Assembly: GCF_037392515.1 (NCBI RefSeq)
Contig: NC_090291.1
Span: 34,166,501-34,230,500 of the forward strand
DNA length: 64,000 nucleotides
Direction of reading: 5' to 3'
Source: Haliotis asinina
Lineage: Eukaryota; Mollusca; Gastropoda; Lepetellida; Haliotidae
The notes beneath the pieces were generated by a model, which made no database searches, was not told the DNA's origin, and saw only the letters and a list, made by a program, of their open reading frames with translations. Positions within the stretch are counted from its first letter, which is position 1. Every line of letters begins with the position of its first letter. A program made the translations under genes and the position numbers. This document shows, piece by piece, positions 23,674-62,243 of the stretch.

Positions 23674-23790
23674 TTAAGACATCAACTCGATCATACTAAC
23701 AGAGACGTCGTCTACAAATAAAAAGCTGTCAGGAATTGCTCCAGGGTCTCTCTCCTTGAAGTTGTGAGTGCTCACACCATCGATCACTAA
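23674..23790 (-). CDS. G1 exon 6: galectin domain, last strands and stop
   Basis: 117 nt, acceptor TTTATTCCAG, stop TAA at 23674-23676. It encodes LVIDGVSTHNFKERDPGAIP and DVSVSMIELMS. The VxxGxxxHxFxxR ... GDVxVSxIEL pattern is the galectin C-terminal signature. Confidence 0.85.
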   Translation of the reverse strand, partial: LVIDGVSTHNFKERDPGAIPDSFLFVDDVSVSMIELMS

Positions 23791-26700
23791 CTGGAATAAA
23801 CCAGTCATTATTTTACTGCTAATGTTTTATCCAAACATCGTACACAAAGTGAAAAACAGTGTTAGAATTCTAATTATGTTCTTGAATTTGTTTTCTCCAG
23901 TATAATGCTCTTCCATGACAAAGAAAACAAAATTAAATATACACTGTATAGTTGCCACAGTGATGAACACAAATTGTCACACTCTGTGACACTAGAATAT
24001 GAAATGAAACCGCAGTGATATATGGGGCGATTGAGTAGTCCAGTGCTTAAAGTGTTTCACTCGTCACGCCAAAGATCCGGGTTTGATTTCCCACATGGGT
24101 AGATTGTGTCAAGCACCCTGATCTTGATGAAATATTACCGAAAGGAGCGTAAAACCAAACTCATCCACTCATTCAATGATATGCATACTCTAATACACTC
24201 TTTGCAATTTACATTTCATGTATAAATCATCTACACCCTTTAGTTTACATTCAAAAGCTACTTAATAATGTATGCATCCTCACTGTTATATTCCATACAT
24301 ACCCCGTATTCTCCATCTCCGAGAGTTATTTGAACCTCCATTGTTTTTTCAACAGCCAAATTCAGATCGAAACTCTCCTTTGTTCCCCAGTTATCATCTA
24401 TCTTTGTGTTGACAACGGTCATGTTACTGTCTCCCTTGTAGTCGAGGCGGAACTCTACGTAGAATAACGTGTCAGCTTGTTTCTTTATCCCGATACCCCA
24501 TCTGCAGTTGAATGATAACAGATGAAACGACTCAGTTCGTATTTGTACACTATTTCAACTGCTTAATTTAACAAGTTTCACTTATGGTCTAACAAAAAAT
24601 TGTTCAGCAATGTCCATAAATTTGCTCTTCACTTTCTTGTCATCATGATAATGTCCATAAATTTGCTCTTCACCTACTTGCCATCGCGATATTGTCCATA
24701 TATATGCTCTTCACTTTCTTGCCATCGTGATAATGTCCTTAAATATGCTCTTAACTTTCTTGCCATCGTGATAATGTCCATAAATATGCTCTTCACTTTC
24801 TTGCCATCGTGATAATGTCCATAAATATGCTCTTCACTTTCTTGCCATCGTGATAATGTCCATAAATATGCTCTTCACTTTCTTGCCATCGTGATAATGT
24901 CCTTAAATATGTTCTTCACCTACCTGCCATCGCGATATTGTCCATATATATGTTCTTCACTTTCTTGCCATCGTGATAATGTTCATAAATATGCTCTTCA
25001 CTTTCTTGCCATCGTGATAATGTCCTTAAATGTGCTCTTCACTTTCTTGCCATCGTGATCAATTATATTGCTAAATGTATTTCACCTGTATTGTGCCTTA
25101 CGTTATAATTCGCTCATAATCCATGGTTTCGTCCTTGTTAACCTATTAACGGCATCTTTACGGTTCAGTTTCGGTCAGATATACAGACGAAATATAACTT
25201 ATATTCAATATAAATATTTTGGCCAGATTTACATGTTGTATACCGAACATATACAGACGACGGTTTAAATATGACTGAATGTCTAAATTAGTTTAACAAT
25301 GTGATTCAAACTGTGTATGCGTTACCTTGTAACCTCGGTTGCTTTCCCATTGACTACCAGCCGGAACTTGCTGGATGGACCACACGGAAATGAATACCTG
25401 CCTTTGATCTGCAACAGACATACCAGCACATTTCATTATTCCCTGTTTCATAAGAACTGATGTGATTTTCTTATAATTTTGTGTATGATTTTAAGAAACA
25501 TGTATTAGAGCTGTTTAAGTCAAAGGATCTCTTAAGGGTGTAGTGTAAATACTGTGATGCATCGCATAAATTGAATGTTCAGTTACTATGTTTTAAGCGT
25601 TTGGAAGGTCGTCACCAACTGTTATGCTCGAAGTGTGATGCAGGACCTGCTGAAGATGAGTTTTATTTCCTTCTGCTATATCCTCATTATAAGTCATGTA
25701 GAGAACTGTTTGTACCGCCATGTTATTATAGGTCATGTAGAGAACTGTTTGTACCGCCATGTTATTATAAGTCATGTAGAGAACTGTTTGTACCGCCATG
25801 TTATTATTAGTCATATAGAGAACTGTTTGTACCGCCATGTTATTATAAGTCATGTAGAGAACTGTTTGTACCGCCATGTTATTATAAGAATCCACCCCAT
25901 GATGAATTTGTCTAATTAATATCAATAACAAATTCTGTGCACATAAAGAAGACATGACTGTACCTCAAGTGAAATGTATCATGTTAAACAGACTTTTTTA
26001 TAATTTGTATTTATTCTAAGTATTTACACGGTTTTGCATAAAAGTGGAGGAGAATAGTGCATGGCAGTTTGACCAAATCTTAATGAAGTAATGTGTATGA
26101 CAATTAATGACCGCGTTACACATTGTTAACTTACAACATTCAGTGAGCTATTTTTGTAAGGTATGGAATGTTTGTGGGTAGGTATTCTGAAGTTGAAAAA
26201 GATTTGTGTTGACAGAATAATTACTGGGTTTACGGGGTTATAGGAGGGCCAACAAGAACGTTCTATTTGGGCTTTGCATTTTGTGCGATATCCAACTTTC
26301 CAGGCGCCTCGAGTTGGAACACACGTTGGTGCTTTGTTGAGTAGTCTTGCATTGTATATCAGTATATGTTGCCCATTGCATGTTTCTTGTATCTTAGTAC
26401 TATGGGCCATGAGGAGTCAAATGCAAAAAATCAGCTTGTCACTTCACTCTTGTGATGTGACTTTGTATGTTTTCTTGTGTACATCTATCTTTGATTTAAT
26501 TCAAAATATATTGCATATATTCAAATATGATCGGAATTACTGGACCTTTAAAAAGAGAATCTAAAAGAGATCTAAATTTGTGTTATGCTGCCGTTTGCTT
26601 GCCCTGTCAACACAAGTCAGACCGAGACTTGACCAGCCGTCAGATATGTATGGTGCTGGGTACCAGTTAAACCAGAAAACAGGGCTTGATGTGTGTAGGG

Positions 26701-29700
26701 TCTGTGTTTACGTATACCAAGGATCCTTAAATACTCAGAATATCTTACCGGGTCGTACCACCGGCTCTGTCCACAAAGACCGACCAAACTCTCCCATGCT
26801 CCAGATGACTGACAGGTGCTGGTGACATTGTTGTAGCAGGCTCTGTAGTCAGGGTCACATGAGTAGGTCGCCACAGATCCCTCGTAGTGACCGTCATACG
26901 TGATGTTGGCGTCGCTCACTTCCGGGGGATGACCACAACCCTGGAACTCTTCACACAAACGATTATATGTCTAAAAATTACAGTCAGCAGTCGTGTTTTA
27001 AGAACTTCAATATGTCATCTGTCAATCCCCGATTAATAGACTAGTTTGACTAGTTATCAAAGTAACACAACACCAAGTCCGGAAGGGAATATTGTTTTTT
27101 TCATGAACATTCCTAAGATTTCATTACTCCAAGAATGCTTAAAAGACACAGAACAGCACAGATGTTCACGCTCATATCTTTTGTTTGGATCACCGTTCTA
27201 CCCACAGGGGTTCGAATGTCTGTTTGGATAATAATTTTCAAAAACAAAATCTAGATTTTTACAGTCGTATATTGTTTTTATGTGTTGTGTTTAGCATATA
27301 TTTCAAATTTGAACGAAATCGGTGAAGAAATGAATTTTAGAAAATTCTACTGCTGTAGCAGTAGATGTTTCTAAAAAATAATAATTTCATCACCGATTTC
27401 GTTCAAATATTTGAACACAGAATATACTTTCATGTAATAAGTGTAGCAGTAGAACTTTCTAACAAACCATTTCTTCGCCGATTTCGTTTTAATTTGAATT
27501 ATATGTCAATCATAACGTAAGAAAAGAATATACGGTTATAAAAATCAAGATTTTTATTTTTGAAAATTATTGTGCGAACAGAGATTCAAAACCCTGTGAT
27601 TCTACTCACGTTTTTGGTCTTTACACTGCTTTTGTGTGTTGCCTCTGCTACTGTTGGCTGATAGTGTCTTTTATAAGTTCAAAAACTTATTTAAGTCAAT
27701 TTATCAGGAACGCAATAAGGCAACCAGTTAAAATCATGGACAGTCTCGCTAACTAGAACTTTAAAACTATCTTGGTATATGCATCCCGTAAAGTTAGTTG
27801 AGATGGTGGAAGAACACTGGTTACCTGGAGCACATCTTGCAAGACCAAGTCGAGTTACCTCACAGCGGGTGTTGGGACACATCACTATAGCGCATCGTCC
27901 AGAGAGAGACTATGAAGAAAAGAACCCGTTCACAAATATACTGACCACGTTCAAACAACAATTGTTCGCGTTGTGTTTTCCTGTGTATATCAATCCAACG
28001 AGGGTAGGTATTGCTTCTCCGACTTTTAATTCCACTTTTAACATATTTTTAAATCACACATCGAAAAATGAGAAATAGATTGCCATTGGGCACCCATTCA
28101 GTGAAATTATGAATATAAATCTCCGTAATTGGAACACGATGAAATCTATTGACCAATACAGCGAGGCTGACCAGTTGATCCCCTCAGTGACATCTAAGGT
28201 AAAGGTTGATAAAGGTTAATCACTCTTAATCACCTGCATTGCCCGAGCAGAGTTTATTTGAATACCTACCACAGTGAGGGTGTTTAAACGGCTTAGCATC
28301 AGTCATGCTAATAGGACACTTCGAAGAACAGTGGACATAACTTAAGAGAAGATAATTCCTTTCCCGCCTTTTCACAAGGCCTTGTTACCAAATCAGACAT
28401 AAATCTGTCGCAGAATTCCAAAACTTACAACAAGCATATTTGGACATACTTAATGGAAATGTTTATACTCATTCACAAAATAAAAGCTGCTTTTTTCACA
28501 AGGTCATGGAATCTGTACCAAAACAACATCGTGAGATCTGTACCAGCTTCCTACGTTTGTCGTTGACAAAATAGGTAACACTGAAATATAGCAATTATGC
28601 AAAACATCCCCCAACATCTCAAAATTTCATATAAACGTATCCAATAAAACACGTTCATATTTACATTCCACTTCCATATACATCTCACAGTAATTTCTGC
28701 TAAAGGCAAAATCGATTGTACATTCCCGGTTATGTCATGATCCCGTGTTTATGAATCATTATGAAAGCGTGGTCTTGGTAAGTGTGCACATTCTGCACCT
28801 TCGATCACGCCCTGCATTAACAAATGGAAGTCTAGTCCTGTTTTACCTGAACAAAAGCACGTGGAAGTATGATACATGGCCAAATTAGGATTAGCATAAA
28901 ACAAATGCCCATATGGAAATACCCTGCATGGGTTTTCCATTTGACATTTCAGTTTTTAAAAAAAAAAAACTGAACAGAGGCTTGCATGTAAGAGAAATCT
29001 TGATTAAAAGAGCGTGTTCGATTGTAACTCAAACGTTGTGAAACAGAGACATCGGATCTTGGAGCTCTTGACAAACTGCTCCACGTTGAGCTGCATTCAT
29101 CCTTGTTGTCCTCAGCCTTGCTCGACATGGAGGAAAAGTCATCCTTGTTGTCATCAGCCTTGCTCAACATAGGGGGACGTCATTTTTGTTGTCATCAGCC
29201 TTGCTCGACATAGGGGAACGCATCCTTGTCATCAGCCTTGCTCGACATAGGGGAAGTCATCTTTGTTGTCATCAGCCTTGCTCGACATAGGGGAAGTCAT
29301 CCTTGTTGTCATCAGCCTTGCTCGACATAGGAGAATGTCATTCTTGTTGTCATCAGCCTTGCTCGACATAGGGGAAGTCATCCTTGTTGTCATCAGTCTT
29401 GCTCGACATAGGGGAAAGTCATCCTTGTTGTCATCAGCCTTGCTCGACATAGGGGGAAGTAGTCATCCTTGTTGTCATCAGCCTTGCTCAACATAGGGGG
29501 AAGCCATCCTTGTTGTCATCAGCCCTGCTCGATATTTGGGGAGGTCATCCTTGTTGTCATCAGCGTTGCTCGACATCGGGAGAAGTCATCTCTGTTGTCA
29601 TCAACCTTGCTCGACATAGGGGGAAGTCATCCTTAACTTGTCATCAGTCTTGATCGACATCGGGGGAAAGCTACCCCTATTGTTATACAGCCTTGCTCGA

Positions 29701-30805
29701 CATTGTGGGAAAGCCATCACTATTGACACCAGCTTTGCTTGACATTGCGAGAAAGATACAGCCTATTGTCATACAGCCTTGGAGAGATCTTGTTTGCCTC
29801 TGAATGGTTGTGAATAGATCTAAAATGGAAAGACATACGGCGGCCTCGTTGGTCTGTGTACTTTAGTATCTTGTCATTTTTATCGTGAAGCAGAATGATG
29901 AACGTAATAAATCCTTTAAATATGTATGTAAGCTAGATTAATATTATTAACAGTGACTTTATTTCCACAATGAATGATATTATTTGTGTCCTTAAAACAC
30001 ATAACAAATGTGCTTTCCCTAACTATGTCGGTTTTCTTAGGAAATCTGTCCCCATCACTACGGACCGTCGAAGCTCAAATATACATTCCCTTTGCAATTC
30101 ATCGTGAACCTCACATGGATCTAAATATATTATTAAGCTATATTCAAATGTCATCACCACACGCAGGTGTGACTAAATTTTATGGAAAAAAACCATTAGA
30201 CAAGAATGGAACAATTTTGATATCCTTTCTGTGTATGACAAAGTTTAGATTTAGATGTAGAATTAGTGAGTAATTCTTGGTTTTGTAATTTTAAGAAGAT
30301 TCTACATTTTATCACGATTTTATCAAAAGAATGAATGTTTACACCTCCAAGAAACTGGAAAAAACATTATTAAGGTAAATGTTGCAGACATTCAGAAGTC
30401 ACTGAGATAACACGTACTTGGCAGAGTGCCAACAACATAACACCTTTAAACAAGGAGGTCTGAACTGAAAGACTAAAATCTGCTGTGAACACCTACCTTT
30501 GGCCAGTGTTGAATATCACTGAATAGGAATCCCGTTCTGTCAACGAGGTTAGCAGTATCACTACTGTTACTGTTGAGGAGGCAGGTGCGCGTTTTCTTCT
30601 CAAATCCAAAGGACAGACATACTGAGGACATGAGACATTCTGATGCACAGGCGTAGAGAGACTGACTCCAGAACTTTCTGAACACCTGGTGTTCCATGTT
30701 CCTGTCACGCTGAACTACAGACTCCACGTCCAGACAGTTGTCACCATTGACGAACCTCATTATTCCTAAAATCAGTAAAACGACTTCGTCATGATAAGAC
30801 CACAT
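23674..30805 (-). CDS. G1: secreted PAN-CCP-galectin chimeric lectin-like protein (complete)
   Basis: Six exons (30805-30497, 27909-27825, 26948-26749, 25408-25326, 24501-24303, 23790-23674) total 993 nt, 330 residues, and every junction is in phase. Domains in order: signal peptide (about 1-21), PAN/apple-like module (24-103), cysteine-rich linker (104-131), CCP/sushi-like module (132-198), and galectin-type beta-sandwich (199-330). The galectin call rests on DTLFYVEFRLDYKGDSN, VVNTKIDDNWG, FDLNLAVEKTMEVQITLGDG and LVIDGVSTHNF ... DDVSVSMIEL, matching strands of the family. The standard HxNxR/VxN/WxxExR sugar site is mostly changed (YxExR, VxN, WxxKxS). Secretion and a carbohydrate or protein recognition role are inferred. 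Neighbouring copies G1b, G2 and G3 share exon structure and intron sequence, so the family arose by tandem duplication. I know of no described protein with this order. Confidence 0.85.
24022..24170 (+). repeat. tRNA-derived SINE (SINE-C)
   Basis: In G1 intron 5. A-box region GATTGAGTAGTCCAGTGCTTA and B-box region CCGGGTTTGATTTCCCAC give a tRNA-like head. The body has CAAGCACCCTGATCTTGATG and the tail CCAAACTCATCCACTC. Confidence 0.7.
24303..24501 (-). CDS. G1 exon 5: galectin domain, sugar-site strands
   Basis: 199 nt, acceptor AACTGCAG, donor GTATGT. It encodes WGIGIKKQADTLFYVEFRLD, YKGDSNMTVVNTKIDDNWGT and NLAVEKTMEVQITLGDGEYG. This exon corresponds to the one that carries the carbohydrate-binding residues in vertebrate galectin genes. 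Confidence 0.85.
24600..25064. repeat. Minisatellite, 41 bp unit, about 11 copies
   Basis: Unit GATAATGTCCATAAATATGC + TCTTCACTTTCTTGCCATCGT in G1 intron 4. Copies differ by a few bases. The frame 24600-24812 is a repeat translation. Confidence 0.92.
25326..25408 (-). CDS. G1 exon 4: galectin domain, first strands
   Basis: 83 nt, phase 0 in and phase 2 out, acceptor GTTGCAG, donor GTAACG. It encodes IKGRYSFPCGPSSKFRLVVN and GKATEVT(R). Aligned with the first sheet of galectins (ITVxGxxxxxxxRF). Confidence 0.82.
25540..26030 (+). mobile_element. LINE 3' fragment with internal coding minisatellite
   Basis: Frame at 25571-25810 encodes the zinc-knuckle-like C-terminus of a LINE polyprotein: KRLEGRHQLLCSKCDAGPAE, DEFYFLLLYPHYKSCRELFV. 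A 39 bp, 13-codon unit (25684-25893, five copies, encoding YKSCRELFVPPCY) is expanded inside it, with a stop in the fourth copy. The fragment then reads KNPPHDEFV. It sits in G1 intron 3, opposite in strand to G1. Confidence 0.65.
26749..26948 (-). CDS. G1 exon 3: CCP/sushi-like module
   Basis: 200 nt between acceptor TGTGAAG and donor GTAAGA. It encodes EFQGCGHPPEVSDANITYDG, then YEGSVATYSCDPDYRACYNN, ending LCGQSRWYDP. The CGHPP start, 'G..VATYSCDPDY' and 'TCQSSGAWESLVGLCG' are classic CCP features (C..P ... Y.C..GY ... C...G.W....P.C), with an extra cysteine in RACYN. Confidence 0.88.
27203..27598. mobile_element. Long palindromic MITE
   Basis: In G1 intron 2. The ends are inverted: CACAGGGGTTCGAATGTCTG ... 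AATAATTTTCAAAAAC on the left against ATAATTTTCAAAAATA (minus) ... CACAGGG on the right. Inside are further inverted units around CACCGATTTCGTTCAAAT and GTAGCAGTAGA. No coding capacity. Confidence 0.75.
27825..27909 (-). CDS. G1 exon 2: short cysteine-rich module
   Basis: 85 nt between acceptor CTTCATAG and donor GTAACC, phase 0 in and phase 1 out. It encodes SLSGRCAIVMCPNTRCEVTR and LGLARCAP with four cysteines (C-x4-C-x4-C-x9-C). G2 and G3 have an 88 nt version with one extra residue before the third cysteine. Confidence 0.85.
28090..28210 (+). repeat. Ancient SINE-A relic in G1 intron 1
   Basis: ATTATGAATATAAATCTCCG and CAATACAGCGAGGCTGACCA resemble the SINE-A core. The equivalent relic lies in G3 intron 1 at about 62420-62560, in the same place relative to exon 2. 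The insertion therefore looks older than the gene duplication. Confidence 0.45.
29090..29725. repeat. Minisatellite, about 40 bp unit, about 15 copies
   Basis: Unit CATCCTTGTTGTCATCAGCC + TTGCTCGACATAGGGGAAGT in G1 intron 1, decaying toward both ends. Frames on both strands (28949-29170, 29232-29450, 29263-29496) are repeat translations. Confidence 0.92.
29770..30470. other. G1 intron 1, no feature recognised
   Basis: The plus-strand frame 29974-30273 (99 codons) has no domain I recognise. It could be a mobile-element scrap. Confidence 0.35.
30497..30805 (-). CDS. G1 exon 1: signal peptide + PAN/apple-like domain
   Basis: 309 nt, ends CCAAAG before donor GTAGGT. Starts MWSYHDEVVLLILGIMRFVN, a short hydrophobic signal segment with cleavage probably after VNG. 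The module has the PAN pattern: SLYACASECLMSSVCLSFGF then KTRTCLLNSNSSDTANL, with five cysteines. The start is chosen because G2 has the same MWSY start with the same exon length. Confidence 0.88.
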
Positions 30806-30809
30806 TTCA

Positions 30810-31495: not shown

Positions 31496-31496
31496 A

Positions 31497-33500: not shown

Positions 33501-34758
33501 ACATGTTTCCTTTAATTACGTACATGAAAACTAACATTATTAAAAGACACACCATGGATGACAGTAATCAGCTGTGATGGAAAAATATATCACTGAAGCA
33601 GGGCATGCTTGACCATGATTCTTTCATCACATGGGGTACAGCACGGAGGCTCCACGGCTTTTAATATCATGTATTCGGGAGGTTATATGCATTGACCAAT
33701 ACGGTGTCGTTATTTATAAGATGGCCTTTTCAATTCTGGACTGACAACCCAAGTTGTCTACACCGTTACCTGGATCTTTTTCATACTGGAGTCAGTCAGA
33801 TGTGTATTGTCACCTATAAATCCTGCGTTGAAACTGGTTTTTGGCCATGATAATTTAAGCTTAGTTCGGTATGGCTATACTTTTACATACAGGATATAAA
33901 CCAGTATTCTGAAGCTAACATTCAACTGATATATCCACCCTATGTTTTCCCACAGTGAAACGAAAATCGGTATGAATGAATGAATAGGAATGGAAATCCA
34001 TGTTCTCAGGTTGTCCCACTGAAACTTCTCTGGAAAACATGTCTCGCTGAATACATATTTGTGATAAAGGTCTTAGACATTAAAACATCCGTGAACATCC
34101 GTTGGTTTGGGGAAAACAGAAACGACACCTTCAGAATCCAGAACTGGTGTCGTATATCTGAAAAAGGTACAGAAATATACTGATTAAATATCAGTGAAGA
34201 AACCAATTATTTTATATTCATCCTACATGGACGAATACATAAGTCACATTCCGTCCTTTTTCGTGTGCATTTTATATCAGATTCTGCATATAACATTATC
34301 TTTCAGCATAATTATATCAAACTGAGTCAGCTGAATGTCTTACATAGCAAGCGTTTGGTACTCTATAACTTTAATAGGGCGCTGAACAAATTGACAGATT
34401 GACATGCATTTCTGTTACTCTGTTTTTCGACATAATTTCCTATTGATGTCCTCAAAATCTTTAGGAAAAATAAACTCATAGAAACGAACAAGGGAACACA
34501 TGAAAGTACAAGACTAATGTTCCTTTGCTTTTTTTCCAGAAAAGAATAAAGGGACACTTGTACATTTATTTGTTTCCATGAGTATATATAGCGCATTTGT
34601 GTCTGGTTACAACTGACAAATTGGAGATTCTCCTGTGTGAGGTGATTTTGGTCATCGCTTCCCCAATCCGGGAAGAAACATGAAAGTAATCGAAATACTT
34701 TTTTCAGATCCACAATAGGGAGTATGGAAGTGTACTTCCTGATGCACTGGAAAAGATA

Positions 34759-34846
34759 TTTACACCTGGAACACATCTTGCACGACCAAGTCGAGTTAAC
34801 TCACCCCGACTGATTTCTTGACATGTCCTTTGTGTGGATCCACCAG
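34759..34846 (-). pseudogene. G1b exon 2 relic
   Basis: Between acceptor CCTTATAG and donor GTGTAA. Encodes SLPGGSTQRTCQEISRGELT and RLGRARCVP in frame. Two of the four cysteines of the functional exon are replaced. Confidence 0.6.
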
Positions 34847-35517
34847 GCAGTGACTATAAGGAAGATCGATTACAACTGAGCAGACGACATTTGGTTGAAA
34901 TGGAGCCTCACCTTATGTCTGTTGTAGATAGTAGCTTATTACGTATTCTAGGATCAAAGATGTTTTATTTCTGTAATTGAATTTTTTGACAAATCAAATC
35001 GTTTATTTGCATAGTACAGTTTTCAAAATGTATTTCAGTCTAATGACACGGACACGATAACGATTAAACATGATCCTAGGTCTGAAAGCAAAGAAGGAAG
35101 GAACTTCTTCTCTCAAAAGGTTTCTGATACAGCTGGAATTAAAACCATGTTTGATGTATGTCACTGTATGCCACTTGCAAACATCGATGTTCATGATATA
35201 ACCCCCTGGATTGACTTCATTTTTAAAGGCAACGTTATACAAATGGTATGTTACTGCGTGCAGGGAAATCGATCGTTGGACTGTCAGTGAGTGCAACCGC
35301 CAACGTGAAGCTAAAATATTGCATTATTTAACAGCAAACATAGCCATATTGACTTACATGGCTCTTTGTTTCAACTCATGCACCATTTTCTTCTCTGTGG
35401 TGAAATGAGGTATGTAGGTTCGCAATTATATGTTGCCTTTCCAATGGTTTGTGAGTATTAGAAGATTCTATTTGTACCTCTAATTAAAGAGATAGAACAT
35501 CTACCGTGGGCACCAAC

Positions 35518-35871
35518 CTTTGGGTAGTGTCGAATATCACTAAAGAGGATTCCCGTTCTGTCAACAACGTTAGCAGTATCGCTATTGTTACTGTTGAGGA
35601 GGCAGGTGCTCGTTTTCTTCACAAATCCAAAGGACAGACATACTGAGGTCATGAGGCATTCTGATGCACAGGCGTAGAGAGACTGACTCCAGAAGTTTCT
35701 GAACACCAGGTGTTCCATGTACTTGTCACGCTGAACTACAGAATCCATGTCCAAACGGTAGTTACCGTACAGTAACTTTCTGTACTTGTCTCCAGGAACG
35801 CCACATTCCACATCCAAACAGTTGTCACCGTGGACTGACTGACGATATAATTCCAAAGATGATGAAAACAC
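35518..35871 (-). pseudogene. G1b PAN/apple exon with internal duplication
   Basis: LYACASECLMTSVCLSFGFV and TSTCLLNSNNSDTANVVDRT align to G1 and G2. The hydrophobic leader FIIFGIISSVS is visible but in another frame than the PAN domain. The extra 'GDNCLDVE' copy precedes the normal one. Confidence 0.75.
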
Positions 35872-36138
35872 ATTTGCTATGGTTAGACGACATGTGCATA
35901 GCCTTGATCGCCAAGTGTCAATTAGTGGCTAACGCATCTTACTTTAATTGTGTTAACAACGTAAACTGCCTAGTTACCATGCGCGTTCATATGTTTTGAT
36001 ATAAAAGCTTGGAAACATCAATATAAGCAGATCATTTAAATTTCGGTATGCTGTTCAATTAAGCTCATATTCAACGTTGCTCATTTTTGTGTGGTCTTGA
36101 GAACGAAGCAATGTGATTTTTACGTTTACTAGTCTAGT

Positions 36139-37309: not shown

Positions 37310-38235
37310 TATAGTGCCTCGGCACTGTCTTAAACATGTTGGTACTGTTACCCTCAATGTTAATTGGTATCTGAGTGTACATATTGTTAAGTGGCGTTTT
37401 ATAATGTACGTGGTTTGGGCACACCAGGTATCTTCAGAGTCGTGTAGTTATTAACAAACATAACATGATACAGTCGGAATGTGGACAATCGATTCTTCTT
37501 TTCCAGATGCGGAAACGTTGAGAGTTCCGTTGCTTTTTAGTTCACACGTGAATCGGTTAATCCATGGAACAAATTATATTGGTAATTGCAAGATAACACC
37601 AAAAATGCTATACTCTAGTACAGACAGAAACACAACAAGTACCAGGTATATGTGTACAGATAACACAGTGTGATATGACAACAGTAACAAACGTAACTAG
37701 CATAGTCATACAATGAAATGACACCAAAGACTCCCTCCAGAGAGATGACACGAGTATATGAACGGCCGCTGAAGCAATGAACCACTGCACACGCACGCCT
37801 TTCTCAATGAAAACGTAGCAGCTTTTCCAAGGTCCAAATATTAGGAATTCAAGAGGTAATGTTTTTAACTGTTAAGCACCCGATAGCAACCCGACACGCA
37901 TTTCCTTCCAAGTTTGCCATTAGTGTAGTGTTGCAGGAAAGTATACCTAATACGACTCAGTGTAAAATTATATTAAGATATCACTCTTAAGATCCAAAGA
38001 CTTTTCAAATCTAAAAACGTGTCAGAGGCAATAGAAGACAAATTTCGAACTGTGACTTATGTACACAATTACCTATTCATATCTTTACGTGTCATTCCAG
38101 TAAATTAACCAGAAATCAGTCCGTGACGTTTGATGTGAAACTAACACATAACGAAGAAATTAAACATAACTGTCAACAACTGTTCTTTGAATGTAAATAA
38201 GGTTACAAATCCCTACACAATACAGTGACATAACA
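37310..38235. other. Stretch without recognised genes
   Basis: No domain, RNA gene or familiar repeat. Short frames 37479-37673 and 37608-37796 have no support. Confidence 0.35.
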
Positions 38236-38237
38236 TA

Positions 38238-38511
38238 ATGAGTGAGTGAGTTTAGTTTTACGTCACACTCAGCAATACTCCAGTCATATAGCGGCGGTCT
38301 GTAAATAATCGAGTCTGGACCAGACAATCCAGTGATCAACAGCATAACCATACCATCGATCTGCGCAATTGGGAACCGATGATATGTTTTAACCAAGTCA
38401 GCGAGCCTAACCACCCGATCCCGTTAATCGCCTCTCACGACAAGTAAAGTCGTCCTTTATGACAAATATGGATTGTAGAAGGCCTATTCTACCCCGGGAC
38501 CTTCAAGGGTC
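38238..38511 (+). repeat. SINE-A copy
   Basis: Complete, GAGTGAGTGAGTTTAGTTTT to CCCGGGACCTTCAAGGGTC, with a few substitutions and a small insertion at CATAACCATACCATCGATCT. Confidence 0.9.
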
Positions 38512-38664: not shown

Positions 38665-38931
38665 TGAATGAGTGAGTTTAGTTTTACGCCGCACTTAGCA
38701 ATATTACAGCTATATGGCAGCGGTCTGTAAATAATCGAGTCTGGACCAGACAATCCAGTGATCAGCAACATGAGCATCGATCAGCGCAATTGGGAACCAA
38801 TGACATGTGCCAACCAAGTCAGCGAGCCTGACCACCTGATCCCGTTAGTCGCCTCTTACGACAAGCATAGTCGCCTTTTATGGCAAGCATGGGTTGCTGA
38901 AGGCCTATTCTACCCCGGGACCTTCACGGGC
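38665..38931 (+). repeat. SINE-A copy, close to consensus
   Basis: GAATGAGTGAGTTTAGTTTT to CCGGGACCTTCACGGG. Among the least diverged copies in the window, so probably young. Confidence 0.92.
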
Positions 38932-39888: not shown

Positions 39889-40005
39889 TTAAGACATCAA
39901 CTCCATCATACCAACAGAGACGTCGCCCCAAACTAAAACTTGGTCAGGCTTAGCCCCAGGTTCTCTCTCGGTGAGGTTATGAATGTAGGCACCATCGATT
40001 ACGAA
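39889..40005 (-). CDS. G2 exon 6: galectin domain, last strands and stop
   Basis: 117 nt, acceptor TTATTCCAG, stop TAA at 39889-39891. FVIDGAYIHNLTEREPGAKP and VWGDVSVGMMELMS. Confidence 0.85.
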   Translation of the reverse strand, partial: FVIDGAYIHNLTEREPGAKPDQVLVWGDVSVGMMELMS

Positions 40006-49120: not shown

Positions 49121-49125
49121 GCACA

Positions 49126-50295: not shown

Positions 50296-51560
50296 ACGAG
50301 GGGATGTCAATAAGTTTTGAGCCTTGAGCATTTTTCATACCCAGGTGTCACAGCCTATAGTACGACAATGAACCTTGGGGTGTAGCTGATGTGATAAATA
50401 AGTTTTGGTATCCTACTCTCAGAAGTTATAGAACAGCTCACACTGACAAAAAGAGACCCCCCTTACGGCAGTGAAAATGAATAAAATTTGAGTATAGAGC
50501 AGTAATTAAGCTTTTAGTTCTTGAAGGAAACTCGACGAAGAACGTTGAAGAAAGGCTTTCAGCAGTTTATGGGAAGTCTTCCCCTTTATCTGCTACCAGC
50601 AAACGATGGGTCAATGAATTTAAGCATGGTAGAGAGAGTCTTGAAGATGACCCCCGTCCAGGTCGCCCAACAACAAGCACTAGTCAGGAAAACATTGACA
50701 GAGTGCATAGACTTGTGCTGGAAAATCGTCGAATCACACTGCACGAGACCCCAGGCATTTCACACGGATCCATCGAGACAATTCTTCATGAACATCTCGT
50801 CATGTCTAAGGTGTGCGCAAGATGGGTGCCATGAATGCTTACAGATGAAATGAAGCAAACAAGGGTTACCATAAGCAACTCCATGCTAACCAGATACAAC
50901 AAGAATCCAGAAGATTTTCACTTTAGGCTAGTAACCTGTGATGAAACCTGGATCCACCACTATGATTTGGAGAGCAAACAAGAATCCATGGAATGGAAAC
51001 ATGTCACTTCTCCCAGGACCAAAAAAGCCTCCAGATCAGTGCAGAAGGTAATGGCGACAGTCTTCTGGGACAGCAAAGGATTACTTACCGAAAGGAAGAA
51101 CAATGAATGGGGAATATTGCGCTAACTTGTTGAGGCAAGTGCGACAGTCCAGCAAGGAGAAGCGCCGGGGCAAGACGTGGTATTCTTCTACATCAAGACA
51201 ATGCTCCAGTACACACCTCTCGCGTTGCAGCTGCTGCTGTCCAGGAATGCGGGTACGAAATCTTGCCGCATCCCCCCTACTCTCCAAACCTGGCATCAAG
51301 TGATTACCATCTGTTCCCAGATCTCAAGAAACACTTGCGTGGTCGTAGATTTCAGGATGATAATGAGCTTATTGTTGCTACTGGGGCTTGGTTTGAGGAC
51401 CAAAATGGCGCCTTCTACAGGGATGGCATCAGCGACTGGCAGAAAAGATGGAACAAGTGTCTTGACTCACAAAGGGACTATGTTGAAAAATAAATGTGGT
51501 TCATACCAATATTTTGTGTTTTTCTATGCAAGACTCAAAACTTATTGACATCCCCTCGTA
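50296..51560 (+). mobile_element. Mariner transposon (DD34D) with both terminal repeats
   Basis: Inverted ends CGAGGGGATGTCAATAAGTT + TTGAGCC at 50298 and CTCAAAACTTATTGACATCC + CCTCG at 51558 are flanked by TA. The transposase runs in plus frames from about 50510: TSKRWVNEFKHGRESLEDDP, RPGRPTTSTSQENIDRVHRL, then CDETWIHHYDLESKQESMEW (first acid), QDNAPVHTSRVAAAAVQECG (second) and PPYSPNLASSDYHLFPDLKK (third). Thirty-four residues separate the last two acids. It ends WNKCLDSQRDYVEK and TAA at 51490-51492. About four lesions are visible: an early stop near the start, a stop after KVCARWVP, and frame changes near 50735 and 51090-51190. So it is recent but inactive. Confidence 0.92.
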
Positions 51561-52007: not shown

Positions 52008-52907
52008 GGAGTTTATATGAAAAATAGAGATGCAATTAAAATGTCGATGAATCTTTGAAAAGTGTTTCCCCCAATTTTGATTCCTGGGCTCGTTTTCTGG
52101 TGACTGAGGCTACTGATTTTCTACTGGTTTCATTCGAAACAGAGCTCGTTGTCTCGTTGAAATGTGCGAGAGAGATACTGCTGCAGAACTACATGACTAG
52201 GGTGTGACAACAGTCGAACCTTTTGCCGTCAAGAGAGAAGGTATCATGGGTGAAAGTCAGAGGAACCCTTAACATCAACTTCAGTCATACCACCAACTTC
52301 CAAAGTAACTCAGTCCTGCTCGATCTCAGACAGAATCAGCCCGCAACATCGCCACAAATGTGCGACAAACAGCCAAGCACTCGGAGGTTCCTTTAGGGAG
52401 CACTTTTGTGGTGACACTGTCTTCTCAGGATATATGGACACGCTTTTCCTCCTCGCATATCTCCAATAACCATGACTCAACTGGCCAATGTACTTCAGTG
52501 AAATTGCAGAGGGTTTAAAATAGCTTCAGTGAAATACAGTTACTCATACAAGATTTTTAACCATCAGCATTATGTCTGCAGGATGCATATCTTTAAAATA
52601 CAGTGGAAACCTGATAAAGTAAAATTTCAAAGGACTCGCCAGAATTGTTTATTTGCAAATGACAGTTATATGCAGGTATGATTTACATGCACATGTATAT
52701 GTATACATCATAATAACAGACAACATTTTAAGTACTATGTTTTATTTCATAAACTTTAAATGAGGTAAGCAATACATTCATAATACAAAGTAATAAAAAG
52801 CAAACAAGATATTCCAGTCACAACTCCCCAAAAGCTGTCATGAGGGATTGTCTCTCGCCAAAAAGTGTTTCCATGTCCTTCTCTGCAACATCGTTGGCCA
52901 CCATGTT

Positions 52908-53075
52908 TATAATAATCGAGTCGGGACCAGACAATCCAGTGACCGATCTGCGCAATTGGGAACCGCTGACATGTGTCTACCAAGTCAGCGAGTCTGACCA
53001 CCCGATCCCGTTAATCGCCTCTTACGACAAGCCCTTTTGTGGCAAGCATGGATGGCTCAAGGCCTATTCTACCCC
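52908..53075 (+). repeat. SINE-A fragment, forward
   Basis: AATAATCGAGTCGGGACCAG to AAGGCCTATTCTACCCCTG, with 5' head missing. Confidence 0.8.
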
Positions 53076-54429: not shown

Positions 54430-56725
54430 TCCTCACCTTCTTCTACGTAGGAGATATTAAGTCCTACGTAGGAGATAGTGACACCAAAAAAAATTTTAAC
54501 CGTGGTCCCAATACTCTGTCGTACGGCGGCGTATTAGGGCCAAGGTGAAAAAGTTTTTGGGTGTCACTGGACTTATTATCACCTACGTAGGAGTTAAGAA
54601 TACTATCTTCAACGTAGGAATTACTATCTCCTACGTAGGAGTTAGTAAGTCCTACGTAGGTGATATTAAGTCCTACGTAGATGATAATAAGTCCTACCTA
54701 GGAGATAGTAAGTCCTACGTAGGTGATATTAAGTCCTACCTAGGAGATAGTAAGTCCTACGTAGGTGATATTAAGTCCTACGTAGATGATAATAAGTCCT
54801 ACCTAGGAGATAGTAAGTCCTACGTAGGTGATATTAAGTCCTACCTAGGAGATAGTAAGTCCTACGTAGGTGATATTAAGTCCTACGTAGATGATAATAA
54901 GTCCTACCTAGGAGATAGTAAGTCCTACGTAGGTGATATTAAGTCCTACCTAGGAGATAGTAAGTCCTACGTAGGTGATATTAAGTCCTACCTAGGAGAT
55001 AGTAAGTCCTACGTAGGTGATATTAAGTCCTACCTAGGAGATAGTAAGTCCTACGTAGATGATAATAAGTTCTACGTAGATGATAATAAGTCCTACCTAG
55101 GAGATAGTAAGTCCTACGTAGGTGATATTAAGTCCTACGTAGATGATAATAAGTCCTACCTAGGAGATAGTAAGTCCTACGTAGGTGATATTAAGTCCTA
55201 CGTAGATGATAATAAGTCCTACCTAGGAGATAGTAAGTCCTACGTAGGTGATATTAAGTCCTACGTAGATGATATTAAGTCCTACCTAGGAGATAGTAAG
55301 TCCTACGTAGGTGATATTAAGTCCTACGTAGATGATAATAAGTCCTACCTAGGAGATAGTAAGTCCTACGTAGATGATAATAAGTTCTACGTAGATGATA
55401 ATAAGTCCTACCTAGGAGATAGTAAGTCCTACGTAGATGATAATAAGTCCTACCTAGGAGATAGTAAGTCCTACGTAGGTGATATTAAGTCCTACCTAGG
55501 AGATAGTAAGTCCTACGTAGATGATAATAAGTTCTACGTAGATGATAATAAGTCCTACCTAGGAGATAGTAAGTCCTACGTAGGTGATATTAAGTCCTAC
55601 GTAGATGATAATAAGTCCTACCTAGGAGATAGTAAGTCCTACGTAGGTGATATTAAGTCCTACGTAGATGATAATAAGTCCTACCTAGGAGATAGTAAGT
55701 CCTACGTAGGTGATATTAAGTCCTACGTAGATGATAATAAGTCCTACCTAGGAGATAGTAAGTCCTACGTAGATGATAATAAGTCCTACCTAGGAGATAG
55801 TAAGTCCTACGTAGGTGATATTAAGTCCTACGTAGGTGATATTAAGTCCTACGTAGATGATAATAAGTCCTACCTAGGAGATAGTAAGTCCTACGTAGAT
55901 GATAATAAGTCCTACCTAGGAGATAGTAAGTCCTACGTAGGTGATATTAAGTCCTACGTAGGTGATATTAAGTCCTACGTAGATGATAATAAGTCCTACC
56001 TAGGAGATAGTAAGTCCTACGTAGATGATAATAAGTCCTACCTAGGAGATAGTAAGTCCTACGTAGGTGATATTAAGTCCTACGTAGGTGATATTAAGTC
56101 CTACGTAGATGATAATAAGTCCTACCTAGGAGATAGTAAGTCCTACGTAGATGATAATAAGTCCTACCTAGGAGATAGTAAGTCCTACGTAGGTGATATT
56201 AAGTCCTACGTAGGTGATATTAAGTCCTACGTAGATGATAATAAGTCCTACCTAGGAGATAGTAAGTCCTACGTAGATGATAATAAGTCCTACCTAGGAG
56301 ATAGTAAGTCCTACGTAGGTGATATTAAGTCCTACGTAGATGATATTAAGTCCTACCTAGGAGATAGTAAGTCCTACGTAGGTGATATTAAGTCCTACGT
56401 AGATGATAATAAGTCCTACCTAGGAGATAGTAAGTCCTACGTAGATGATAATAAGTTCTACGTAGATGATAATAAGTCCTACCTAGGAGATAGTAAGTCC
56501 TACGTAGGTGATATTAAGTCCTACCTAGGAGATAGTAAGTCCTACGTAGGTGATATTAAGTCCTACGTAGATGATAATAAGTCCTACCTAGGAGATAGTA
56601 AGTCCGACTTACTAAGTCCTACGTAGGAGATGTTAAGTACTAAGTCCTACGTAGGAGATTCTAAGTAGTAAGTCCTACGTAGGAGATACTAAGTCCTGCG
56701 TAGGAGATGCTAAGTCTGAGATAAC
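54430..56725. repeat. Highly regular 21 bp minisatellite, about 100 units
   Basis: Three unit types, A (AAGTCCTACGTAGGTGATAT+T), B (AAGTCCTACGTAGATGATAA+T) and C (AAGTCCTACCTAGGAGATAG+T), alternate in C-A, C-A-B, C-B and longer higher-order patterns with almost no other mutation. Each unit has a self-complementary core (CCTACGTAGG or CCTAGG). Because 21 is seven codons, one plus frame (54545-56626) stays open for 693 codons as KSYVGDI / KSYVDDN / KSYLGDS heptads. The array edges (54430-54650, 56600-56725) are more diverged. Confidence 0.97.
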
Positions 56726-56779
56726 CGATTCAGAGCCAAGCATGATATATATAGCACCGTAAAAAGTGCAAACATAACC

Positions 56780-59700
56780 CCGCCCACATTGTGATTTCTA
56801 TAGAGAGCACCGGAAGTGGGAAAACTCAACCGAAATCTGACAACAAATCGTACGAGATCTCAGTCGCGGGATACATCAACGGTGGAGACATGCACTTATA
56901 CACAGTAATCAGCAGCGTCAACTGTCAATCAACCAAGACTCACTCGGCCAGGGTGACAGGACACTGTCCACTGGAGAGAACAGTACGGCCAAAGCGCGCT
57001 CTCTCACGTGAGTACGTATCAAGCTGGTAATGCTTAATAAACGTGCTAGGCTTGCTCCAAATGGCAGCAGAGCAAATCTCTTCAATGGGCAGTGCCGATG
57101 CAAATGCTTTGGAAGCGGCGACTGCCCCGACCGAGTGAGCCTTCAACCCCTCAGGGTCTTGCCCTTAGCCTGGTAAACAGCACAGATGACCGAAACTAGC
57201 CAGCGAGATAGGGTCTGTTTAATAGCCAGTAACGCTGCCTTCCCACCGCCGTAACAGCAGAACAGATGGGTACCCGTAGGGATCCCTTGTGTTCCTTTGA
57301 TATAGACCTTGAGGGTCTTACGGACATCCAGTGGGTGTGTGCTCGTTGCAGAGGTCTCCGATGTAGAAGGCTGGGTGAGAGCAGGAAGTTCGATAGCAGC
57401 TGTCACATGGAAAGCGTGATCGATCGAGGCGAATACTGACACTGTCTAGATGAAAGACAATCAGCGCCGGGTCTGTAGACATGGCATGTAAATCACCATC
57501 CCTTCTCCCAGATGTTACCGCCACCAGAAATACGGCATTCCATGTTAACAGCTGAATGGAAATAGCCGATAGACGTGAGAAAGTAGGACCGGACAGTCAA
57601 TCAAGCATGATTGACAAATCCCAAGGTGGGCTGGTACGCCTGACAGCAGGTCGAACACGATCCACACCAGGTAAAAAACACTGCACGAGAGGGTGCTGCC
57701 CCAGAAGAGCACCATCGATATGGGTGTGAAAGGTTAAAATACCGGTGGAGTAGCCACGAATGGTCGAAGCCACCAAGCCTTCTTCCAAAGGTGTTTGAGA
57801 TAGCGCACTGAGCAACCAATCGTTCAGGTAAGGGTGACAACGTCTTCCTTGTGATCTGGCTAGAGTAGCCAGCACTAACATGAGTTTGGTAAACACCCTT
57901 GGGGCCGTGATCACACACGAACTGATAACACACCCCGTCGTAAGAGAACTGGAGGAACTGCTTGAACGAGGGGTGTATCGGCACATGAAAATACGCATCA
58001 TAGAGGTCGATCAAAGTAAGCCAGTCTGTGGGCTGAACAGATGAGATCACCGAGCGAAGTGTCTCCATCTTGAAGGATGGAACTTCTATCATGCAGTTCA
58101 ACCATTTGAGGTTGAGAATGGGACGGAACCCGGCGTCCTTCTTCGGAATGATGAAGTACGTGGAGTAGAAACCCATCTGTTCCTCGCCCGGGGGTACACG
58201 CTCTATTGCGGACTTGTCCAGCAAAACCCGAACCTCGTATCGCAGAATACCTGCCTTGATCGAAACAGTACGGCAGCGGAGTGCGCCTTATGCTGACAAA
58301 CTGGAGCAGGCCTCGCTTCCACAGTAGTAGATGGCCAACACAAATGGTGGACAGCACCCAAGGATTTCGCATTGCCATCTCCCATTCTGGTAGGTAGGGC
58401 GTGAGTAATCCTGAGCAACACTGGAAGTGACTGGGACTGCCCCGCGGGAACCACCAGGGTGTCTAACGGGCAGTTGGGCAGACCCCCCGCGACCGTGAAA
58501 AGGTTGCTGGGAGCTAGACAAAGAGGTTCGCTTAAATTGGCGGCGTGACTCCTCTTCCTACTCCTGCCAAGCGGCCGAAGCCAGCCCGCAGACTCAGACG
58601 TAGGCTGCGTCCCGGAAGTTCACTACGGGAGTGTAGGGGCGAGAAACCCGTGGCTGCTCCAGCAAGGTTTTCGAGTCTTAAAAAGACGTCGCAGCTGCTG
58701 CAGCCTCCCGAATGACCTGCTGTGCCCCGGAAACAATATTGCTCCCAGCCACAACGGAAGGGCCATCACGGTCTGCTGTGTTGCTGCCGAGTAATGAGAC
58801 GTCGACAGCCACAGCTTGCACATCCCCATAACTGCGCACATCACCGTAGACGCTGCCGCCTTCGATGAGTCGTGCGTCAGGTGGGCCTGCACTTCGGACA
58901 GCTAAGAGAACTACATTTGGGGAGACGTCCCCAGAGTTCTCTCCCGCCTCCAGAGCTGACCTCTGTAAAGAGGAGAGGTAAGGCGTATGGACCACAACCC
59001 TAACCTTCTATATGGCATTCCGACAGACCTCCTCATAGGTCCGGTATGCCTGTCGCAGGGGGGCAGCCAACTGGGCGAACAAAGTGAATACACACTCATC
59101 CATGACCGGTACCAGGAAAAGAGAATCGTCCCCTTGCTGGTAACGCCGAACAAGCCCTGGTAAATCAAAGCACAGGCGGGTACCAGCAAGGAAGGGATCC
59201 ATCTTGTCCCGCACAAAGGAAGGGAGTATAAGGAGATGCATCTGCAAGGGCTGCCCAGGAGCAAACGCCTCGCTCGGCAGGTGGAACTTAGCTGAGTCCG
59301 GGCGGCTAGTCGGGACTGCAGCCTGGGGAATAGCTTGTGCGATACGCTGATGCACCTCCCTGAAGGCCGAGGAAAAGCGGAAAGCTGCCTCGGACTCCTC
59401 GACCTCCCCAACATCCATAGCCTCAATCTCTGACCCCGAGGCCAAGCCGGAATCCTCTCAAAAAGAGGACCCATACCCGGACCCAGTGGATGATCGAACC
59501 ACAGTGGGGAAGGAAGAGCCCAAGGCACCTTCCACTCCAGTCACCAAAATACCATCCGAACCCCCGTCCAAAGACGCAGGAGGAAGCGCGAACGAAACTG
59601 TTGGTACTACAAGTGGAACACGCCGTAAAGGCCTGAAAGCCAAAATGCCAAGCATAAGCTGGCGGCCTACACAGCAGCACATAATTAACACGTACAAAAC

Positions 59701-59870
59701 TTTGGAAATTACGAGGATACGCGCGACATGAACTAATTTGTACTAGACGTAATACTTCAACACGCGGGGGCGCCGACTTCCCGCCATGGGAACACGTGCG
59801 TAACCCACGGGAAAGCCAGCACAAATTCAACTCCTGGTTTAAATAAAACGTTCTGTTTCACTATTAACGA
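56780..59870 (-). mobile_element. DIRS-type (tyrosine-recombinase) retroelement, fossil
   Basis: Minus-strand order is gag-like region (about 59530-58900), reverse transcriptase with RNase H (about 58520-57600), and tyrosine recombinase (about 57450-56900). RT is identified by YFIIPKKDAGFRPILNLKWL and TLIDLYDAYFHVPIHPSFKQ, the recombinase by HPLDVRKTLKVYIKGTQGIP and KQTLSRWLVSVICAVYQAKG. This domain order and sequence style are those of DIRS1-like elements. The copy is broken in several places, and the split repeats expected at its ends were not identified. Domains are still easy to recognise, which suggests moderate age. Confidence 0.85.
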
Positions 59871-60112
59871 ACGAATAAACCATACATACAGTCGAGGAAG
59901 ATATCTTCGAAGTACGCACTGAGTTGAACTCTCACTTTGTCTTTACTTTTTTTCCAGCACACACGTCTTATCAGAACGGTGACAGCAGAAGAAATGATGA
60001 TACAGGCTTGGATGCTTACCTGCGCATGCGCGTCAGAGGGGTGACTCCACGTGGTGAGGGGCCGTACAACAAGAACAGGAACCAAAAAGACTTTTTCTTT
60101 ATTGTACAATAT

Positions 60113-60118
60113 TTTATT
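60113..60118 (-). promoter_or_regulatory. Candidate polyadenylation signal of G3
   Basis: AATAAA on the minus strand, about 195 nt after the G3 stop. A second AATAAA lies at 60098-60103. Confidence 0.4.
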
Positions 60119-60311
60119 AAAACATTGATACAACGGTCACGTGGCATCTTCCGGCAGCAGAAAATGCATATATGTACTCCAAGGACGATCTCTATGGGAA
60201 AGAATTAGAACACATTCAACCTTGGAGTTAGTAATACAATTACTGTCTCGTGTGAGAAACATGTCTGTTGGCCAAGTGATCAAGGTAATCTGTTGTTTTC
60301 GAGGAGTTCGA

Positions 60312-60428
60312 CTAAGATACCCATTCCATCTTACTAACAGAGACGTCGCCCCAAAATGAAAGGTGGTCAGGCATTGCTCCAGGGACTTTCTCCGTGAAGT
60401 TGTGAATACTGGCACCATCGATTACTAA
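60312..60428 (-). CDS. G3 exon 6: galectin domain, last strands and stop
   Basis: 117 nt, acceptor TTATTCCAG, stop TAG at 60312-60314. LVIDGASIHNFTEKVPGAMP and WGDVSVSKMEWVS. Confidence 0.83.
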   Translation of the reverse strand, partial: LVIDGASIHNFTEKVPGAMPDHLSFWGDVSVSKMEWVS

Positions 60429-62243
60429 CTGGAATAAACCAGCCAATACCTTATTTTACATTGGCAATAACAAATTGTCACGCACTGGAATATTAAATGA
60501 AACTGCTGCGTATTTCCTATTGTTCTCGGCTTACTTTCAATGGGAAATACCCTAATACAAAGTTCGCATATATATATACCTTAAATTTAACCATGTATAT
60601 ATCCGTAATGCTTGTCATTTACATTCTATACACACCCTGTATACTCCATCTTGGACGGTTATTTGAATCCCCATTGTTTTTCCAACAGCCATTGTGAGAT
60701 CGAAACGGTACTCTGTCCCCCACACGCCATCAATCACAGAGTTGATAATGACCGTGTTTCTGATCCCGTTGTGGCCCACGCGAAACTCTAAGTAGAATAA
60801 TGTGTCGCCTTGTTTCTGTAGCTTGACGCCCCATCTGCAAATGAGTGAAAAGAGTATTGAAACAGTTCATATTTGCACACTAGTTCCACAACTTCCGTTG
60901 TTCAGCAATGTCCTTAAATATAAATGTCCATTTATTTATGATGTTCTTATGTTTCGATTTGGGTCTCATGTGCCACAAACACCTCTCCTATCTCATGTAC
61001 TTCACAACTGAAGTATAATTAAATGTGTAAATTACTTTGATAATTTAATTCAAAGTATCAACTTCTACCTTGTCGATTCTGTCGCTGCACCATTCATTAT
61101 CAGCTGAAACATACTGGATGGACTACACGGAAAAGAATACAAGCCTCTTCTCTGCAACAGACATAACAAACGTTTCATGATTCGCCGTTTCACAAATATA
61201 GATGTGATTTTGTAGTGTATGATTGCTTTAAGGGGACTAACCCTAATTTAATTTCTTATATATTCGATACATTTTGTGTTTAAAACAAGTCATCTAGATT
61301 GACCACAGATCAGTGATACATGTTGCTAGGTACTAGTCTAACAAGGAATCCGCACTTAGAGGTGGCAGGGTTGGGGGTGTTTAGTACCTGTTCAAGTATA
61401 TCACATCTGTGCAAGAACCTTAAATATTCAGACAAAAATAAAATCTTACCGGATCGTGATACCTGAACTGCCCACAAAGATCTTCTAGACTCTCCCACGT
61501 TTCCGATGACTGACAGGTGCTGGTGACATTGTTGTAGCAGGCTCTGAAGTCAGGGTCACATGAGTAGGTCGCCACAGCTCCCTCGTAGTGACCATCATAC
61601 TTGATGTTGGCGCCGCTCACTTCCGGGGGATGACCACAACCCTGGAACTCTTCACACAAAAAATCACAAAGTCTAGGTATTTGAATCTTCGTCAGCATGT
61701 CAACAGTCTTGTTTTTGGAAGTACAGTCTTTCGCGATGCGTGTCTTGCACCTGCTATATCAGCTGGTGTAGAACTCAAAGTATCAAAAAACCAAAAAGTC
61801 CGGAAAGGGAATCATTTTTCCAAAAGCATTTAGCAAGTTTTGATAGATCCAAGAATGCTTGTATGAACGAAGAACAGTACACGGACTTGTTCACATTGAA
61901 TTTTTGATTCGATGAAAATTTGCAGCTTCACCTGTCTACTCATGACTGATGCATCTATGTGCAGCCATTGCTATTTCCTGCCTTAAAATGTCGCACTGTA
62001 CATAGTGTAACTTGCAAATGTCAGTGTATACACCAGGGACGTGATGTAGCAGCTAGCCCAAATCATATACACCATCGCCTAATGAAACTATGCAAAACTA
62101 ACCTCCTGAATGCACCCGCAAAAGGTAGTCGACACATTGAAAGAACATTGGTTACCTGGAGCACAGCTTGCAAGACCAAGTCTGGTTACTTCACAACGGG
62201 TGCCGCTTTGACACACCAGTCGAGCGCATCGTCCAGAGAGAGA
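60312..62243 (-). CDS. G3: PAN-CCP-galectin family member, 5' exon outside the window
   Basis: Exons 2-6 are present and in phase: 62243-62156, 61649-61450, 61151-61069, 60834-60636, 60428-60312 (687 nt). The PAN exon is not seen up to 64000 and should lie beyond the right edge; intron 1 is 2.6 kb in G1 and 1 kb in G2. No stops or damaged splice sites. G3 is the most divergent copy and the only one whose galectin domain keeps the WxxExR half of the sugar-binding signature (VWGTEYRFD), with IxN before it; the HxNxR half is YxExR as in G1 and G2. Intron relics shared with G1 show common descent. Confidence 0.82.
60636..60834 (-). CDS. G3 exon 5: galectin domain, sugar-site strands
   Basis: 199 nt, acceptor ATTTGCAG, donor GTGTGT. 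WGVKLQKQGDTLFYLEFRVG, NTVIINSVIDGVWGTEYRFD, AVGKTMGIQITVQDGVYR. Confidence 0.83.
61069..61151 (-). CDS. G3 exon 4: galectin domain, first strands
   Basis: 83 nt, acceptor GTTGCAG, donor GTAGAA. RRGLYSFPCSPSSMFQLIMN and GAATEST(R). Confidence 0.8.
61450..61649 (-). CDS. G3 exon 3: CCP/sushi-like module
   Basis: 200 nt, donor GTAAGA. EFQGCGHPPEVSGANIKYDG, YEGAVATYSCDPDFRACYNN, SSETWESLEDLCGQFRYHDP. Confidence 0.87.
62156..62243 (-). CDS. G3 exon 2: short cysteine-rich module
   Basis: 88 nt between acceptor CTTCCTAG and donor GTAACC. SLSGRCARLVCQSGTRCEVT then RLGLASCAP, four cysteines. Confidence 0.83.

Follow-up and report, generated by a model that had tools for sequence, protein, structure and literature searches.

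The region analysed here is a 64,000-nucleotide window of the Haliotis asinina genome (NCBI RefSeq assembly GCF_037392515.1, contig NC_090291.1, positions 34,166,501 to 34,230,500 of the forward strand), and all positions below are counted from its first letter. It holds a tandem family of genes, hereafter G1, G2 and G3, whose predicted products would be secreted mosaic proteins with, in order, a leader, a PAN domain, a four-cysteine module, one CCP/Sushi domain and a C-terminal galectin-type domain. As a gene prediction the family is real, purifying selection acts on its reading frames, and two residues of the canonical galactose site are replaced in every copy. The most likely reading, to which I assign a probability of about 0.55, is a family in which the galectin domain has been altered in specificity and serves extracellular recognition or adhesion; roles in immunity or in an extracellular matrix are close rivals.

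Gene layout and exon structure

Exon sets were located in the window by tblastn, with pieces of the PAN, Cys, CCP and galectin modules as queries, and then modelled. Three sets and one decayed set were found, all on the minus strand, in agreement with the original prediction of a same-strand tandem of two complete genes and a third entering from the right edge. G1 (23674-30805) is one open frame over six exons encoding 330 amino acids, and G2 (39889-47733) is likewise one open frame over six exons, encoding 331 amino acids. G3 (60312-62243) comprises exons 2-6 as a five-exon open frame of 228 amino acids, and its exon 1 presumably lies past the right edge of the window. The outer limits first given for the family coincide with the final base of G1 exon 6 (23674) and the opening base of G3 exon 2 (62243).

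In G1, exon 1 (30497-30805, 309 nucleotides (nt), donor phase 0) encodes the leader and the PAN domain, exon 2 (27825-27909, 85 nt, phase 1) the four-cysteine module, and exon 3 (26749-26948, 200 nt, phase 0) the CCP/Sushi domain. The galectin domain starts in exon 4 (25326-25408, 83 nt, phase 2), has its core in exon 5 (24303-24501, 199 nt, phase 0) and ends, followed by the stop codon, in exon 6 (23674-23790, 117 nt). The corresponding exons of G2 are at 47425-47733 (309 nt), 46317-46404 (88 nt), 45394-45593 (200 nt), 44680-44762 (83 nt), 40493-40691 (199 nt) and 39889-40005 (117 nt, with the stop), and exons 2-6 of G3 are at 62156-62243 (88 nt), 61450-61649 (200 nt), 61069-61151 (83 nt), 60636-60834 (199 nt) and 60312-60428 (117 nt, with the stop). 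The only length difference between copies is therefore one codon, in exon 2, and the common exon lengths, together with donor phases of 0, 1, 0, 2 and 0 after exons 1-5, confirm what had been proposed for the genes. The introns measure 2587, 876, 1340, 824 and 512 nt in G1, 1020, 723, 631, 3988 and 487 nt in G2, and 506, 298, 234 and 207 nt in G3, a range of 207-3988 nt. Equal exon lengths beside such widely differing introns are a structural match beyond what chance would give. At the DNA level, exons align between copies at roughly 74-87% identity, and much of the intron sequence is unalignable.

Splice donors were scored with a generic splice weight matrix and ranked as percentiles among all GTs on the strand. 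The exon 2 donor, CAG|GTAACC, is shared by the three genes, with position and phase unchanged, and ranks at the 98.8 percentile, and 11 further donors rank at the 89.5-99.7 percentile. An exon 2 ending 57 nt downstream, at a GTTTT donor, was rejected, as that donor ranks only at the 3.9, 10.7 and 2.2 percentile in the three genes. With exon 2 ending at CAG|GTAACC, the 330-residue G1 model originally put forward is reproduced.

The decayed set retains less than had been claimed for it. It was described as a pseudogene sharing the six exons, and what is kept is a PAN exon (35500-35835, minus strand, by tblastn; PAN_1 E 9.9e-07 on 35461-35928), in which the start of the domain is partly doubled, and a scrap of exon 2 (34740-34811, minus strand; tblastn E 0.001), which includes a 41-nt match 92.7% identical to G1. 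The scrap sits downstream of the PAN exon, as in the intact genes. There is no Met in frame ahead of the PAN domain, and tblastn detected no significant CCP or galectin piece of the pseudogene in the window.

A tblastx comparison of the introns of the copies, with the exons masked, gave short conserved blocks, many of them with stops, among the matches listed. One stop-free block of 42 amino acids (28177-28052 against 62525-62400) was considered as an exon and rejected; it resembles a repeat seen in other open reading frames (ORFs) of the window, for example those at 38163-38423 and 52759-53010.

Module identities, the galactose site and divergence

Pfam places PAN_1, Sushi and Gal-bind_lectin in one chain in both G1 and G2, and Sushi and Gal-bind_lectin in exons 2-6 of G3, all above the curated cut-offs, which bears out the PAN, CCP and galectin identities first assigned by eye. 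The galectin match covers exons 4-6 in each model, at residues 205-326, 204-325 and 111-226 of G1, G2 and G3 (E 6.8e-09, 3.4e-06 and 4.9e-15), and runs over positions 6-130, 4-128 and 14-132 of the 132-position profile, so that all three models belong to the galectin family across the whole domain. The Sushi match is full-length in all three (positions 1-56 of 56; E 1.6e-06, 6.9e-07 and 3.6e-06), and the four-Cys Sushi pattern with its Trp is present, with one Cys in addition. PAN family membership is found as a partial match, over positions 21-64 (G1, E 1.4e-06 in the spliced model) and 13-61 (G2, E 1.6e-06) of the 76-position PAN_1 profile. No Pfam family matched the four-Cys module of exon 2. 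Reversed G1 and reversed G3, used as controls for two of the three models, matched no Pfam family at E up to 1.

Searches of the PDB support two of these assignments. At E up to 0.01, the galectin region of G3 had 78 matches in the PDB (HMMER), and the best 60 of the 78 are galectins or congerins by name, bar two, a 'Placental protein 13-like' entry and a viral 'putative fiber protein'. In a profile search with the longer exon 2 model, 44 PDB sequences matched at E up to 0.01, again in the galectin part. The CCP of G2 matched complement regulators of the CD55/CR1/C4BP kind, with E 7.3e-09 for a multi-repeat chain and 1.9e-04 for a single-stretch match. The alignment of the longer model was also used as a profile against contig sets that hold no animal genomes: 30 stretches of viral contigs and 38 of genome contigs matched the pattern, and none was confirmed, while the CCP exon of G3 had no match in viral contigs of a set likewise free of animal genomes.

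The motifs HFNPRF, VCN and WGxExR are central to galactose binding (PMC13084444, in the part of that paper available). To place the corresponding residues, the register was taken from the HMMER alignment of G3 with a galectin-1 chain, which is gap-free from Arg48 to Arg73 in galectin-1 numbering; the alignment to the second repeat of 4hl0 agrees with it. At the seven contact positions, canonically His, Asn, Arg, Asn, Trp, Glu and Arg, G1 has Y E R N W K S, G2 has Y E R N S E S and G3 has Y E R N W E R. Three of the seven are thus kept in G1, three in G2 and five in G3. Other residues stand in for the canonical His and Asn in each of the three genes, and WGxExR is intact only in G3, whose exon 5 retains WGTEYR. 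As judged from sequence, this is a galectin-family domain, and the canonical site, HxNxR, N and WGxExR, is complete in no copy.

The chains contain 15 (G1), 15 (G2) and 10 (G3, exons 2-6) cysteines at matching positions. Exon 1 opens with a leader-like hydrophobic stretch, which by inspection supports the leader that had been proposed, and N-glycosylation sequons are present in each gene.

The ratio of nonsynonymous to synonymous substitution rates (dN/dS) over the whole coding sequence is 0.57 for G1-G2 (330 codons; 95% bootstrap interval 0.39-0.80), 0.58 for G1-G3 (227 codons; 0.38-0.89) and 0.43 for G2-G3 (228 codons; 0.30-0.60). All the intervals lie below 1, and the reading frames are therefore under constraint. 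Divergence is uneven along the chain: for the same three pairs, amino-acid identity in galectin exons 4-6 is 64, 57 and 60%, against 86, 82 and 80% in the preceding exons, and dN/dS is 0.76, 0.66 and 0.45 against 0.38, 0.41 and 0.36. The galectin-exon intervals include 1 in two of the three pairs (0.46-1.26 and 0.41-1.11), and in the third (0.29-0.71) do not. Positive selection on the galectin part was considered, and these ratios give it no support.

Known relatives and competing explanations

The published proteins compared here are described as far as the available portions of the cited papers go. Most molluscan galectins described have no leader and are built as tandem repeats (PMC4795696, PMC8878817, PMC5877582). 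Such typical galectins (also PMC13084444) share with this family the galectin domain, which is full-length here, but they are without leader or extra modules and keep HFNPR and WGxExR, whereas in the present genes both His and Asn have given way to other residues and WGxExR survives only in G3. Secretion as such has parallels, since two sponges have secreted galectin-domain proteins and a few sponge galectins have a signal peptide (PMC13084444). Closer to home, secreted proteins that have both Sushi and galectin domains are listed in the shell-matrix proteome of Haliotis laevigata (PMC6003135), so that the initial statement that galectins are not fused to PAN or sushi modules was too strong. 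In the CLC_3878 group and idb_982 of that study, a signal sequence, Sushi and galectin occur in one chain, as is predicted for this family. Those proteins add chitin-binding type II repeats and FA58C or fucolectin/tachylectin-4/pentraxin domains, and PAN, present in G1 and G2, is not named for them in the available text (PMC6003135). Pfam found no chitin-binding family in G1-G3 at E up to 1, and the plan of chitin-binding repeats plus Sushi and galectin is accordingly not that of the present chains. In limpet mucus, Sushi occurs with a C-type lectin and no galectin, in the part of the paper available (PMC7333891).

The other relatives are the Biomphalaria galectin-related proteins (GREPs) of the VIgL family, plasma proteins that combine immunoglobulin superfamily (IgSF) and galectin domains (PMC5433772). 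They share with G1-G3 the plan of N-terminal modules followed by a galectin domain, but their N-terminal modules are IgSF1 and IgSF2, in place of which PAN, the Cys module and Sushi are found here. Pfam matched no Ig family in G1-G3 at E up to 1, and the GREP/VIgL plan with N-terminal IgSF is not seen; automated searches have difficulty in recognising the Ig domains of mollusc VIgL proteins (PMC9334734). The exact chain of PAN, Cys module, CCP and galectin was not found in searches of the open-licence PubMed Central (PMC) literature. The original claim of novelty for the combination was nevertheless too strong, since Sushi-galectin and IgSF-galectin cousins have been published, as cited above. 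The mosaic is uncommon, yet it has precedent among secreted mosaic lectins of molluscan type.

In the reading that I prefer, export would probably follow the ordinary secretory route, because of the putative leader, the sequons and the many cysteines. The PAN and CCP domains, well conserved among copies, would serve for adhesion or docking. The odd Cys number of the complete chains means that at least one Cys is without a partner in its own chain; this suggests a covalent dimer, which is likely on that ground and would give the protein a multivalent galectin face. The more divergent galectin domain may recognise a ligand different from plain beta-galactosides, or else a protein, an altered target being expected because the usual His and Asn are lacking in all three copies.

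Several observations weigh against this reading. Every splice junction is a prediction from genomic sequence, and the exon 3 acceptor is AAG. Further strong exon 2 donors occur in single genes, for example GAG|GTTAGT in G3 and AAG|GTGTGT in G2. The 57 nt past the chosen donor (27824-27768 in G1, 46316-46260 in G2 and 62155-62099 in G3, minus strand), which contain two conserved Cys codons, carry no in-frame stop in any of the three genes and are 67-72% identical among them, and an alternative longer form of exon 2 is possible for that reason. When the PDB was searched with the PAN alignment, the single match, at E 0.41, was to a protein other than PAN, and Pfam is the one source of the putative PAN assignment. 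AlphaFold was run on single exons with three alignment rows each: the model of the isolated PAN exon is all-helical, unlike PAN, at a mean predicted local distance difference test score (pLDDT) of 48.7, and that of isolated exon 5 has five strands, but at a mean pLDDT of 48.8. Both models are too poor to support a conclusion, and the helical one lends the PAN assignment no help. The first repeat of 4hl0 aligned in another His/Asn/Arg register, in which His and Asn are missing as well. Finally, the galectin exons change faster than the rest, yet without a sign of positive selection.

The two close rivals accept the chain and differ as to its use. It is possible, though on balance unlikely, that the family is one of soluble immune recognition, by analogy with GREPs, in which a plasma lectin would carry docking domains at its N-terminus and a galectin head. 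The plan of a leader, disulfide-rich N-terminal modules and a C-terminal galectin domain is similar, a plasma GREP was recovered through its binding of schistosome larval proteins (PMC5433772), and the copies differ most in the galectin exons (57-64% against 80-86% amino-acid identity in the others). On the other side, no IgSF domain was matched by Pfam in G1-G3, dN/dS gives no sign of positive selection, and GREPs are held, in the part of the source available, to be restricted to Heterobranchia (PMC8878817). A structural role seems rather doubtful: the proteins would belong to the extracellular matrix, the shell matrix or mucus, the degenerate galectin fold would be a protein-protein module, and PAN and CCP would help to cross-link. 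Such a role fits the secreted Sushi and galectin proteins listed for abalone nacre and prismatic matrix (PMC6003135), the replacement of the sugar-site His and Asn in all three copies with the WGxExR half kept in one, and the odd Cys number. It fits less well with G3, which retains five of the seven contact residues, and with the chitin-binding and other lectin domains carried by the abalone proteins (PMC6003135), none of which Pfam found here.

The chain could also be an artefact of gene modelling, the PAN exon belonging to one gene and the CCP and galectin exons to another, with no splicing between them. G1 intron 1 is long (2587 nt), the junctions are predicted ones, and the PAN exon stands nearly alone in the pseudogene. 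This is nonetheless highly improbable, as G1 and G2 agree in exon order and spacing pattern and have compatible phases, the exon 1 donor is strong (99.7 percentile) with no stop ahead of it, and the exon 2 scrap of the pseudogene lies downstream of its PAN exon, preserving the order. Equally improbable is the gamete or egg-coat recognition family first suggested, for which tandem copies of a secreted adhesive protein speak, and nothing more specific; against it, dN/dS offers no evidence of positive selection.

Extracellular recognition or adhesion with altered specificity thus remains the preferred role. A fuller scenario, which I advance only tentatively, is that a galectin fold, placed after PAN, Cys and CCP modules, was recruited for secretion and lost its canonical galactose site, and that the copies diversified one by one into a small repertoire of multivalent heads for different non-galactose targets; the family would then be a distinct one of secreted recognition proteins. 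If the chain is made as predicted, galectin domains would have become part of ordinary secreted mosaic lectins in a way distinct from that of the IgSF-galectin GREPs, and the sugar site would have been partly rewritten between neighbouring copies. On the same condition the family would be a compact, expressible test case for specificity change at the galectin site, as well as a candidate extracellular recognition or matrix family.

Other features of the window

A reverse transcriptase fragment (57604-58287, minus strand; RVT_1 E 7.1e-07) adjoins G3, and lies in 56001-60000, the sole 4-kb bin with a G+C content near 50%. Between G2 and G3 are mariner-like transposase pieces (50481-51490, plus strand), with HTH_48 of Mos1 transposase and DDE_3, and an array of 21-bp tandem repeats (54629-56605, with periods of 42 and 63 scored), which is open for 708 codons on the plus strand. 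Leucine-rich-repeat exons of another gene lie on the minus strand at 12882-13187 (LRR_4 E 6.4e-05, below the cut-off) and 15989-16342 (E 1.1e-16); the start of this gene presumably resembles that of LRRCC1. The tRNA and Rfam scans of the window were empty. Doublets of 22 nt, of the TAGTCACCTCTTACGACAAGCA type, occur at 12098-12142, 38846-38890, 44302-44346 and 45077-45121, and are candidates for the tail of a dispersed short interspersed nuclear element, which they resemble.

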